Below are positions 21,453 to 54,951 of a stretch of DNA of 64,000 bases, piece after piece. The notes under the pieces are model-generated. The model did not search any database, was not told the origin of the DNA, and saw only the letters and a program-made list of their open reading frames with translations. Both the position numbers and the translations under genes were made by a program. Positions within the stretch are counted from its first letter, which is position 1. The number at the start of each line of letters is the position of its first letter. The stretch is from Kineothrix sp. MSJ-39 (lineage in GTDB: Bacteria > Bacillota > Clostridia > Lachnospirales > Lachnospiraceae), in NCBI RefSeq assembly GCF_018917935.1, contig NZ_JAHLPN010000011.1:1-64000 (forward strand). The letters are read 5' to 3'.

Positions 21453-21637
21453 AAAATACTTCAATTTGGATACGAAAAGGAAAAAATGACGTAAATTATA
21501 AGAAAAATGTGCAAAAAAATGAATGGATCAGGTGTTTCATTAGTGACTTTTTTACAAGGATGACTGAAGCAAAATGAATGCACTGTGCAGGATTGCACGG
21601 AAAATGCCCAAAAGCAAAATTGTATTAAAATAAATAC

Positions 21638-21665
21638 TTTACTTTTTGCGCAAATTGGGTATAAT
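21638..21665 (+). promoter_or_regulatory. Promoter of the HPr-like gene
   Basis: TTTACT (21638-21643) and an exact TATAAT (21660-21665) are 16 nt apart. Transcription would start near 21672, about 50 nt before the ATG at 21723, which supports that start over an in-frame ATG at 21585. Confidence 0.65.
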
Positions 21666-21722
21666 GCAAACAATGAAACAAAAAATCAGTATTCTGGCAT
21701 AGTAAGAAAGGTGGTAATTTCT

Positions 21723-21950
21723 ATGACACAACACAAGATTTTTTTAAGACATGATGAAGTAAAAGAATTTGTAAAGAGAGCATCCGCATGCGATTTTGAC
21801 ATTGACATTTCTTATAATCACTATACAGTAGACGCAAAATCCATTTTAGGCGTATTAGCTCTGGATTTCAGACAGGCATTGACAGTTTGCTGTCATGGCT
21901 ATGATGAAGGCTTTGAAAAATATCTTGGTAAGTACGCAATGGCTTGCTAA
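21723..21950 (+). CDS. HPr/Crh-like protein lacking the catalytic histidine
   Basis: A 75-residue protein that aligns across the HPr fold. VDAKSILGVLALDF matches the regulatory-serine region of HPr and Crh (typically NAKSIMGVMSL), keeping the serine that HPr kinase modifies. The N-terminal helix, where HPr has GIHARPA, reads FLRHDEV: an arginine occupies the active histidine position, with a histidine one place later. That arrangement recalls Crh, which has glutamine there and acts only in catabolite regulation. A PTS phosphocarrier role is therefore unlikely. It is monocistronic, with its own promoter and a strong terminator. GAAAGGTGG precedes the ATG. Confidence 0.75.
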   Translation: MTQHKIFLRHDEVKEFVKRASACDFDIDISYNHYTVDAKSILGVLALDFRQALTVCCHGYDEGFEKYLGKYAMAC

Positions 21951-21972
21951 GTATATGGCAGGAACAGACGAA

Positions 21973-22003
21973 ACACCCCCGACAACGTCGGGGGTGTTTT
22001 TGT
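21973..22003 (+). terminator. Terminator of the HPr-like gene
   Basis: A perfect 11-bp GC-rich stem (21973-21983 with 21987-21997, loop AAC) is followed by a T-rich run. The 92-nt repeat R begins in the same T-tract. Confidence 0.92.
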
Positions 22004-22092
22004 TATGGCGATGAGGAAAATGCACGCATTTATGCGGTGCATTTGACGACCGCTGATCAGAGCGAGATTCGCAGAGAGTATCTTGTCTCTGT
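22001..22092 (+). repeat. Structured repeat R, copy 1
   Basis: A 92-nt element aligning without gaps to 45082-45173 and 54511-54602. A central hairpin pairs AAATGCA with TGCATTT around CGCA/TGCG, and a 3' hairpin pairs 22063-22068 (CGAGAT) with 22080-22085 (ATCTTG). An alternative outer helix pairs 22010-22015 with 22082-22087. All copies lie directly after a terminator in the same orientation. Any reading frames across it are short and broken, so it is not coding. Confidence 0.85.
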
Positions 22093-45050: not shown

Positions 45051-45083
45051 AGAGCACCTGTCGATAGACAGGTGCTCTTTTTG
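45051..45083 (+). terminator. Terminator of the SHOCT protein gene
   Basis: A perfect 12-bp stem (45051-45062 with 45067-45078, loop GATA) and a run of T residues. Repeat R copy 2 begins in the T-tract. Confidence 0.93.
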
Positions 45084-45173
45084 TTATGGAGACGAGGAAA
45101 ATGCACGCATTTATGCGATGCATTTGGCGACCGCTAATCAGAGCGAGATTCGAAGAGTGTATCTCGTCTCTGT
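45082..45173 (+). repeat. Structured repeat R, copy 2
   Basis: The second 92-nt copy. The 3' hairpin is CGAGAT (45144-45149) with ATCTCG (45161-45166). The competing outer helix GAGACGAG (45089-45096) with CTCGTCTC (45163-45170) is a perfect 8-bp match here. It sits between a terminator and the promoter of the PadR operon. Confidence 0.85.
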
Positions 45174-45283: not shown

Positions 45284-45304
45284 ACATGGAAAGGAGTAAT
45301 GCAT

Positions 45305-45631
45305 ATGGTATTCAATACAGGAGCAGCGCTTTTAGATGCGATCGTGCTTGCTGTTGTAGATAAAGAAGAGATCGGTACCTATGGCTACCGGATCACACAG
45401 GATGTCCGTCAGGTACTCGAGATATCAGAATCCACGTTGTATCCGGTTCTGAGGCGGTTGCAGAAAAGCGGATTTCTGGAAGTTTATGACAGAGAATGTG
45501 CAGGCAGGAACCGACGGTATTATAAGACGACAGCGATCGGTAAGGCGCAGCTTTCCGAGTACAGGAAAGAATGGCTGGGATATGCCGAAAAAATAACTTC
45601 GATTTTTGAGGGAGGCAAGAAGGATGAATAA
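45305..45631 (+). CDS. PadR family transcriptional regulator
   Basis: A 108-residue winged-helix repressor of the PadR family: LDAIVLAVVDKEEIGTYGYRITQDV, ISESTLYPVLRRLQKSGFLEVYD and RYYKTTAIGKAQL are the canonical recognition-helix and wing segments. The second of two ATGs (45305) is chosen because GGAG lies nine bases ahead; the first at 45299 is too close. It overlaps the DUF1700 gene by 8 nt. Such PadR/DUF1700 pairs control envelope-stress modules in Firmicutes. It probably represses its own operon. Confidence 0.9.
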   Translation: MVFNTGAALLDAIVLAVVDKEEIGTYGYRITQDVRQVLEISESTLYPVLRRLQKSGFLEVYDRECAGRNRRYYKTTAIGKAQLSEYRKEWLGYAEKITSIFEGGKKDE

Positions 45632-52838: not shown

Positions 52839-54446
52839 ATGAAATGTTTTAATTGTGGCTGTGAATTGTCTGAGAAAGACTTTTGTACGGGCTGTGGTGC
52901 TGATGTCGGACTGTATAAAAAAATCATGCATATTTCCAACCGGTATTATAATGACGGACTGGAAAAGGCAAATGTCAGAGATCTTTCCGGTGCGATCGTC
53001 AGCCTGAGACAGAGTTTAAAATTTAACAAAAATAATATAGAAGCCAGAAATCTGTTAGGACTTGTTTATTTTGAGATGGGTGAAGTAGTTGCTGCGCTCA
53101 GTGAATGGGTCATCAGCAAAAATCTGCGTGCCAAGAAAAATCTGGCAGATGATTATATCGATGCGATCCAGAGCAATCCGACGCGTCTTGATACGATCAA
53201 CCAGACCGTCAAGAAATACAATCTGGCACTGCGCTACTGTCAGCAGGACAGCAAAGATCTGGCGATCATCCAGTTGAAAAAGGTTCTTTCTTTAAATCCG
53301 CGCCTGGTGCAGGGACACCAGCTTCTGGCACTTCTTTATATGGATGCGGAGGAATGGGAAAAGGCAAGAAAAGAGCTTGTAAAGTGCAGTAAGATCGATG
53401 CAAATAACACGACAACGCTGACCTACTTAAAAGAAGTCAACAGAATGCTTGGTATCGGGGAAGAAGCTGCAGGAAGCTCTGCGAAAAAGAAAAAAGCGGT
53501 AGCGGAAGAGGCAATTACCTACCAGAGCGGCAATGAGACGATCATTCAGCCGTTAAATGTCAAAGAACCGAGAGGAACTGCCTCTATTTTGAATATTGTG
53601 ATCGGTGTACTGATCGGTATTGCAGCATCGTATTTCCTGATTTTGCCTGCGCGTGTGCAGGTTGTGCGCAACCAGATGAAAGATGAGCTGAAGGTAGTCA
53701 GTGAGAATGCAGATGTCAAATCCGCACGGATCTCAGAGCTGGAGCAGACAGTATCTGATCTGCAGCAGGAAAAAAAGGATCTGCAGGATGCAGTGGATGG
53801 GTATACCGGTGTCAACGGAGAAAGCCACAAGGTAGAAAGCCTGTTGCAGACTGCGACCGATTATCTGAATAATCCGCAGGATTATGAGGCGATAGCAGAT
53901 ACCCTTTATAATGTAGATACCGATTATGTGCAGAATTCTGCGACAGATGCTTATAAGCAGCTCTATAACAAATTGATGGAGCTTGTAGGCAGTCAGGTGG
54001 CGGATCAGATGTACAAGGATGGCAGTGCGGCGATCAACCAGAGTGATTATACGACAGCAATTTCCACGCTGCAGAAGGCATGGTACTTTACCCAGAATAT
54101 GGAAACGCCGGATCCGGAAGTATTATATGAGCTGGCGCAGGCATATCAGATGGCGGGTGAGACCGATAAGGCGAAGGAAGCCTATAATCAGATCCTGCAG
54201 GAGTATGCAGAGTCGCAGACGGCGGGTAAGGCGTCAGAGCGTCTGACAGAGCTTGGAGATGGCAGCGATAATCAGAATGTGGCAGATACAAATACAACAA
54301 CTGATCAGCAGGCGGATCAGCAGGCAGCGGATACACAGACCGCGGACCAGCAGCCGGTTGATGGACAGGCAGATCAGCAGGCAGCGGATACACAGACCGC
54401 GGACCAGCAGCCGGTTGATGGACAGGCAGATCAGCAGACACAGTAG
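52839..54446 (+). CDS. Zinc-ribbon, TPR and single-TM protein
   Basis: A 535-residue membrane protein. An N-terminal zinc ribbon (Cys3, Cys6, Cys16, Cys19) is followed by cytoplasmic TPR repeats (about 35-205, for example IVSLRQSLKFNKNNIEARNLLGLVYFEMGE), a single membrane helix (about 247-268) and an extracellular coiled coil with further TPRs (about 390-470). The tail has two perfect copies of a 19-residue unit rich in Gln/Ala/Asp. It resembles proteins that scaffold envelope or division complexes; no enzyme motif is seen. It forms an operon with folC and the small protein at 52680. Confidence 0.8.
   Translation: MKCFNCGCELSEKDFCTGCGADVGLYKKIMHISNRYYNDGLEKANVRDLSGAIVSLRQSLKFNKNNIEARNLLGLVYFEMGEVVAALSEWVISKNLRAKKNLADDYIDAIQSNPTRLDTINQTVKKYNLALRYCQQDSKDLAIIQLKKVLSLNPRLVQGHQLLALLYMDAEEWEKARKELVKCSKIDANNTTTLTYLKEVNRMLGIGEEAAGSSAKKKKAVAEEAITYQSGNETIIQPLNVKEPRGTASILNIVIGVLIGIAASYFLILPARVQVVRNQMKDELKVVSENADVKSARISELEQTVSDLQQEKKDLQDAVDGYTGVNGESHKVESLLQTATDYLNNPQDYEAIADTLYNVDTDYVQNSATDAYKQLYNKLMELVGSQVADQMYKDGSAAINQSDYTTAISTLQKAWYFTQNMETPDPEVLYELAQAYQMAGETDKAKEAYNQILQEYAESQTAGKASERLTELGDGSDNQNVADTNTTTDQQADQQAADTQTADQQPVDGQADQQAADTQTADQQPVDGQADQQTQ
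54309..54422 (+). repeat. 57-nt tandem repeat in the TPR gene
   Basis: Two adjacent near-identical 57-nt units (54309-54365 and 54366-54422; the visible difference is GGCGGATCAG versus GGCAGATCAG), then the first 15 nt of a third. They encode the QADQQAADTQTADQQPVDG unit. Near identity indicates recent expansion and likely length variation between strains. Confidence 0.9.
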
Positions 54447-54477
54447 CGGCAGCGAAAACTGAATCAGATATTTTACG

Positions 54478-54511
54478 AAAGAGAACATGGAAATTCCAGG
54501 TTCTCTTTTTT
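54478..54511 (+). terminator. Terminator of the folC-TPR operon
   Basis: An imperfect stem AAAGAGAAC-TGG with CCA-GTTCTCTTT (one A-G mismatch) followed by T residues. Repeat R copy 3 starts at the T-tract. Confidence 0.85.
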
Positions 54512-54602
54512 GTTATGGCGACGAGGAAAATGCATGCATTTATGCGGTGCATTTGACGACCGCTAATCAGAGCGAAACTCGCGAAGCGTGTTTCGTCTCT
54601 GT
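54511..54602 (+). repeat. Structured repeat R, copy 3
   Basis: The third 92-nt copy. Its 3' hairpin is CGAAAC (54573-54578) with GTTTCG (54590-54595), extended inward by CGC/GCG around a GAA loop. Two base pairs differ from copies 1-2 with both bases changed (G-C to A-U and U-A to C-G). It fills almost the entire gap before spoIIAA. Confidence 0.87.
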
Positions 54603-54630
54603 TGCATAAAAAGTAGAAAGGATGGGAAAA

Positions 54631-54951
54631 ATGGAAGAAACGGGAATTTTTGAGATCAGGGAGAATTGTCTTCTGGTGCACATGCCTGAGGAGGTGGATC
54701 ATCATACGACAAAGTCGATCCGGCGTCTGGCAGATCATTATCTGCTCGATAACAGGGTGCAGCAGATCGTATTTGATTTTGCGGACACGATGTTTATGGA
54801 CAGCTCCGGGATCGGACTGTTATCAGGCAGAAATGCCAAAATAACCTGCTTTGGCGGCAGAACGATCGTGATCAATGCTAATACCAGGATCCGGAAATTA
54901 TTGCAGATCGCCGGTCTGCAGGATCAGGTATGTATCATGGATGAAATATAA
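54631..54951 (+). CDS. spoIIAA: Anti-sigma F factor antagonist
   Basis: A 106-residue STAS-domain protein that frees sigma F by binding SpoIIAB in the forespore. FADTMFMDSSGIGLLSGRNAK contains the serine (DSSG) phosphorylated by SpoIIAB. The start at 54631 was chosen because GAAAGG lies at a better distance than for the ATG at 54622. It is followed by spoIIAB and sigF in the standard order. No clear sigma-H promoter is seen in the 30 nt separating it from repeat R. Confidence 0.92.
   Translation: MEETGIFEIRENCLLVHMPEEVDHHTTKSIRRLADHYLLDNRVQQIVFDFADTMFMDSSGIGLLSGRNAKITCFGGRTIVINANTRIRKLLQIAGLQDQVCIMDEI

Follow-up and report, generated by a model that had tools for sequence, protein, structure and literature searches.

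The element and its terminators in the window

The window, a 64,000-nt stretch of DNA from Kineothrix sp. MSJ-39, contains three copies of a short structured element, each preceded by an intrinsic terminator. The relevant features are the following, with the basis for each in parentheses.

21585-21950: HPr-domain gene, upstream of terminator 1 (Pfam PTS-HPr)
21972..22001, + strand: intrinsic terminator 1 and T-tract, putative landing site of copy 1; stem 21972-21983 / 21987-21998 (sequence)
22002..22092, + strand: element copy 1 (covariance-model match, 112 bits; predicted fold)
Parts of copy 1: P1 22006-22010/22051-22055; hairpin 1 22018-22044, with bulged G 22036; hairpin 2 22058-22091 (predicted fold)
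45051..45082, + strand: intrinsic terminator 2 and T-tract, putative landing site of copy 2 (sequence)
45083..45173, + strand: element copy 2 (covariance-model match, 103 bits; predicted fold)
45299-45631: PadR-type regulator gene, after copy 2 (Pfam PadR)
52839-54446: TPR-protein gene, before terminator 3 (Pfam)
54480..54511, + strand: intrinsic terminator 3 and T-tract, between the TPR-protein and STAS genes (sequence)
54512..54602, + strand: element copy 3 (covariance-model match, 118 bits; predicted fold)
54622-54951: STAS-domain (SpoIIAA-like) gene, after copy 3, starting 19 nt beyond its end (Pfam)

The hairpins of terminators 1, 2, and 3 are AACACCCCCGAC/GTCGGGGGTGTT, AGAGCACCTGTC/GACAGGTGCTCT, and AGAGAACATGG/CCAGGTTCTCT, respectively, and a conserved 42-mer occurs three times in the window (0 expected from shuffles). 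An earlier sequence-only reading of this DNA described three copies on the + strand, alignable without internal gaps, directly after terminators. All of this is borne out at 22002-22092, 45083-45173, and 54512-54602: each copy begins directly after the T-tract of a clear terminator hairpin. The compensated changes reported for the 3' hairpin (CGAGAT/ATCTCG to CGAAAC/GTTTCG) and the G-U pair in copy 1 are likewise correct. Three is the right count for the window but an undercount for the genome. Specifically, a covariance-model search of the 2.99-Mb genome yields 22 matches, copies or fragments, about 17 of which are full length, and the full-length copies examined all hold one orientation relative to a terminator.

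A two-hairpin fold maintained through sequence change

The element is ~92-105 nt long and comprises two dissimilar hairpins whose order and orientation are fixed. A closing helix, called P1 (UGGCG/CGCUA, UAACG/CGUUA, CACG/CGUG, and others), encloses hairpin 1 and an internal loop in which ACGAG stands opposite CGAC, an arrangement that could be read as tandem G-A pairs. In hairpin 1, the 3' side is longer by a single base in 75 of 91 distinct sequences. Next comes hairpin 2, whose apex is usually CGC/GCG and whose foot is the end of the element. Both the one-base bulge and the GAG/CGA internal loop are found again across sequence classes. Copies 1 and 3 are predicted to fold into P1, hairpin 1, and hairpin 2. 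Copy 2 is predicted to adopt an outer helix because its P1 is broken (TGGAG against CGCTA). The outer helix had been proposed to compete with the 3' hairpin in a two-state fold. It is indeed present as sequence, and it is the predicted winner in copy 2, but it is limited to the sublineage of the window: across the rest of the superfamily its length is no greater than in shuffles, and we thus reject the two-state fold as a family-wide property.

Conserved pairing extends well beyond the window despite large sequence change. In an alignment of 103 copies, which was fitted to the structure by a model that tolerates G-U, 94% of cells pair, 29 of 30 pairs have changed on both sides, and double-changed cells number 666; shuffles give 164 and slid controls 46-66. 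The trend is the same in 25 copies aligned with MAFFT, which have 62 double-changed cells versus 19 in shuffles. Cells with G-U and G-A outnumber those with A-C and T-C on the + strand of the 103-copy alignment, a count subject to the same tolerance for G-U, and this excess gives a hint that folding takes place on the + strand. Taken by itself, hairpin 1 displays no clear G-U bias. Arm-copying events can produce apparent covariation without selection. In two loci, L053 (1501-1595, - strand) and L339 (G111:C17), one P1/hairpin 1 arm is now the reverse complement of the other, a replacement that hairpin template switching would be expected to leave.

Position behind terminators

A terminator-like hairpin with a T-tract ends at the 5' junction of the element in 139 of 158 distinct copies. 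An equal score is reached by 9/156 windows 85 nt upstream, 7/155 downstream, and 29/790 shuffles, a background of 4-6%; the covariance model includes the T-tract, and so may favor T-rich flanks, and includes no terminator hairpin. Terminator-linked class A and class B copies were likewise recovered by a core-only pattern search in which no terminator was required. In many of the 19 exceptions, hairpins with longer loops or eroded tails are visible by eye. Thus, the linkage and the single orientation claimed for the three window copies are strongly supported beyond them. Class C is the exception: its copies adjoin gene starts in reverse orientation and are not behind terminators (L098, L103, L139, L290, and others). 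Class C elements have TATACCAC at both ends, and their flank, GTGGTATAAT, resembles an extended -10 promoter box.

Genes on both sides are co-directional in 54 of 108 loci, and several copies lie only 20-30 nt before the next gene. The upstream genes of different copies are unrelated, which led us to reject a gene-specific regulator. A short peptide starting at GAGGAAAATG was also rejected, as variants such as L026 lose the frame and the ATG (judged by eye).

An undescribed superfamily of the Lachnospiraceae

With a model built from diverged copies, the superfamily is detected in 101 of 397 Lachnospiraceae genomes, spanning 89 of 334 genera, and several genomes contain at least 10 matches. Outside the family, one of 397 genomes in a phylum-wide sample gives a match, and it is borderline. 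Matching contigs come mostly from Lachnospiraceae, for example Butyrivibrio, Roseburia, and Eubacterium uniforme. Classes A, B, and D have different sequences built to the same plan. Near-identical copies exist in G018, which belongs to another genus, while the congener G001 harbors a different variant. Plasmids and viral contigs contain no match except a half-length one in an unannotated phage record, and we therefore reject phage, plasmid, or viral carriage.

No Rfam 15 covariance model matches at its gathering score. The best weak match, Clostridiales-1, reaches 21.9 of 48 bits (E=0.72) in one copy, which is chance level, and relatives within Rfam are accordingly rejected. In the literature we searched, we found no description of terminator-linked repeats in Lachnospiraceae. 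We regard the superfamily as an undescribed family of two-hairpin repeats, widespread and strongly structured, in important gut and rumen bacteria.

Turnover at shared sites

Presence of the element varies among orthologous sites. At the TPR-STAS terminator, which precedes copy 3, the element is present in the genome of the window and in G111; the loci of 29 relatives contain no confident copy. One terminator shared by G127 and G418 is filled in one and empty in the other to within about 3 nt: the filled site reads GAGTTTTTA, then the element TTTACGCG...GCTCGT, then TTTACC, against GAGTTTTTATAATTTTACC. No target-site duplication is visible at this one near-clean pair. At further sites in the same two genomes, one element has been lost by deletion at a TTTTAT repeat, another survives only as a degenerate stub, and unrelated modules fill a third site. 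Between G111 and G421, five compared sites still have the element, with a different terminator before it at one of the five; at a sixth, a single degenerate copy stands against two, and a seventh (L237) has unrelated sequence in G421. Some "empty" sites are not clean insertions: L250 is a deletion, and L237 and L305 are replacements. We caught no insertion within one species.

Four intact shared copies differ at 4 of 396 positions, versus 33/548 in the downstream flank (p=5e-5). Their divergence is no different from that of the upstream flank (8/579). A host function would also be compatible with copies that have diverged less than the sequence downstream of them.

Abutting tandem units occur in 10 of 158 copies, against a background of 0/86. 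The units join exactly end to end, and the second one is mostly truncated at the 3' end; truncated copies generally often lose the 3' end and keep the 5' end. Two elements of different sequence, E and F, start at the base of either hairpin 2 or a terminator, so the landing rule appears to be "directly behind a hairpin."

Candidate enzymes and known systems

The protein content of the genome of the window was searched for three families. It yields no match to the Y1 (RAYT) transposase (PF01797), no match to reverse transcriptase (PF00078), and no full-length IS110 transposase, in an assembly of 54 contigs, from which a collapsed multi-copy transposon could be missed. Given their absence, we reject all three as the mover, and the dedicated REP-associated tyrosine transposase that the sequence-only reading had suggested looking for is among them. 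Y1 transposase is also absent from G018, G111, G359, and G392. The surroundings of 30 Y1 genes, out to about 1.5 kb, contain no element, and 42 Y1 or reverse transcriptase genes in relatives have no significant element match nearby.

Three known systems invite comparison. Group IIC (bacterial-C) introns insert just past intrinsic terminators and in a single orientation (PMC8919778), and the element resembles them in position (139/158 copies versus 4-6%). It differs in being only ~92-105 nt long, in having no group II match in Rfam (window and loci), and in residing in a genome with no PF00078 reverse transcriptase match. Like REPs and REPINs, the element is a dispersed, short, imperfect palindrome with species-specific variants, mostly behind genes. 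Of the GTAG or CGTC tags that REPs carry beside the palindrome, CGTC is present on the reverse strand in classes A-C but not in class D. However, REPs are single palindromes of 20-40 nt, often in inverted pairs, while the element has 92-105 nt, two hairpins, and one orientation, is strictly behind terminators, and, in contrast to RAYT-associated REPs, is found in a genome with 0 PF01797 matches. CGTC-tagged REPs also lack a known transposase (PMC3733652); that paper does not mention Firmicutes or terminators. Bacterial MITEs of the RUP, NEMIS, and bcr1 type are likewise short, non-coding, folded, and dispersed. Unlike them, the element lands strictly behind hairpins, and its classes have no set of terminal inverted repeats in common (the only such match is a subterminal GACGAG/CTCGTC in some sublineages). 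We place it among the dispersed structured repeats as a new variant, distinct from both REP/RAYT elements and group IIC introns.

A proposed mobile element that targets hairpins, and alternatives

Our preferred reading, to which we assign a probability of roughly 0.6, is that the element is non-autonomous and mobile, one class of a two-hairpin Lachnospiraceae superfamily that inserts immediately 3' of a hairpin, in most cases that of an intrinsic terminator with its T-tract. The reading builds on the structure, position, orientation, dispersal, and turnover described above. Counting against it are the missing candidate enzymes, the deletions and replacements at some "empty" sites, and the class C copies at gene starts. 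In landing behind hairpins, the element may parallel group IIC introns. The notion is that a trans-acting enzyme or a host replication process would recognize the folded + strand, perhaps through P1, the GAG/CGA internal loop, the bulged hairpin 1, and hairpin 2. Starting with its own 5' end, the element strand would be attached to the 3' end of the T-tract or synthesized from there, which would explain why incomplete copies usually retain the 5' end. Hairpin 2 may mimic a terminator hairpin and serve as the next landing site, giving rise to tandems and to chains with unrelated elements. Landing behind terminators would make insertion nearly harmless. Of the three functions suggested earlier (transcript stabilization, insulation, or a REP-like mobile repeat), the last fits best, given the dispersed sites, presence/absence differences, tandems, and truncated copies, but a classical RAYT-driven REP it is not, with no Y1 transposase in the genome and no inverted pairs. 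More tentatively, classes A, B, and D could, together with the seemingly unrelated E and F, represent a new class of hairpin-targeting mobile element served by an undescribed enzyme or RNA-guided process; we consider this possible but well short of probable.

The covariation could instead reflect a structured RNA that serves the host, transcribed in terminator read-through and acting there in 3' end protection, as an RNase signal, in insulation, or as the leader of the next gene. The + strand excess of G-U and G-A cells fits an RNA, but hairpin 1 lacks the G-U bias, and the count rests on an alignment made by a G-U-tolerant model. The little-diverged shared copies, the co-directional genes in 54/108 loci, and the copies 20-30 nt before the next gene also suit such a role. 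Nonetheless, the element is located past the transcript end, its upstream genes differ from copy to copy, most orthologous terminators have no element, copies occur in tandem or truncated, and unrelated elements substitute at the same place. We judge a host RNA unlikely. A further idea, favored by the absence of any candidate enzyme from the genome of the window, is enzyme-free spread by replication template switching. In this scenario, a nascent strand stalled at a terminator hairpin would pair its T-tract with that of a filled terminator and copy the sequence behind. Copies that are 5'-complete and 3'-truncated would follow, the T-tract and hairpin are the only features common to donors and targets, L237 and L305 are replacements rather than clean insertions, and L053 and G111:C17 display quasipalindromic arm-copying. 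Left unexplained are the conservation of the bulge, the GAG/CGA loop, and hairpin 2 over much sequence change, and the restriction to one bacterial family, and we hold this route to be less probable still. Least probable is that a Y1 (RAYT-like) transposase moves a REP- or IS200-IS605-type element by acting on its hairpins as single-stranded DNA. The element differs from REPs in its size, in its fixed orientation, and in landing behind terminators, the five genomes named above lack the enzyme, and the 30 Y1 genes have no nearby element. These points weigh against imperfect palindromes with a bulge, a CGTC directly before the palindrome on the reverse strand in classes A-C, as in CGTC-tagged REPs (PMC3733652), and a left flank similar to the right end (TTTTG and CTCTG; in class C, TATACCAC at both ends).

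If the element is mobile, as we favor, terminators would be sites where short elements that have no evident transposase preferentially land. Its positions, the covariance models, and the close species pairs provide a concrete handle for finding the machinery. The case also carries a warning: conserved RNA-like structure beside a terminator is not necessarily a regulatory RNA.

Other repeats and gene order at these sites

Additional repeats are present at or near these junctions. An abundant palindromic repeat, GACCGGTTTCAAAACTCTGACATCGTCTTCAGACAGTTGAAACCGGTC, has dozens of copies per genome in G111 and G421; upstream of L239 it is the terminator before the element in G111, and a different terminator is there in G421. 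A repeat containing AATTGGTCCGGTGGATCAATT has dozens of copies in the G127 and G418 genomes and also lies directly before a class D element (upstream of L253). Directly behind the TPR-STAS terminator of the congener G001 (L359) is a different element of ~104 nt (AGCGAGGAAGGAAAATGAGCG...), in tandem, with its last unit truncated. The order of TPR gene, terminator, and STAS gene itself (window 54446-54622; orthologues L358-L387) is kept in many genera. Often only tens of bases separate the terminator from the STAS start, with the consequence that the STAS gene may be reached by read-through of the terminator or start before it.
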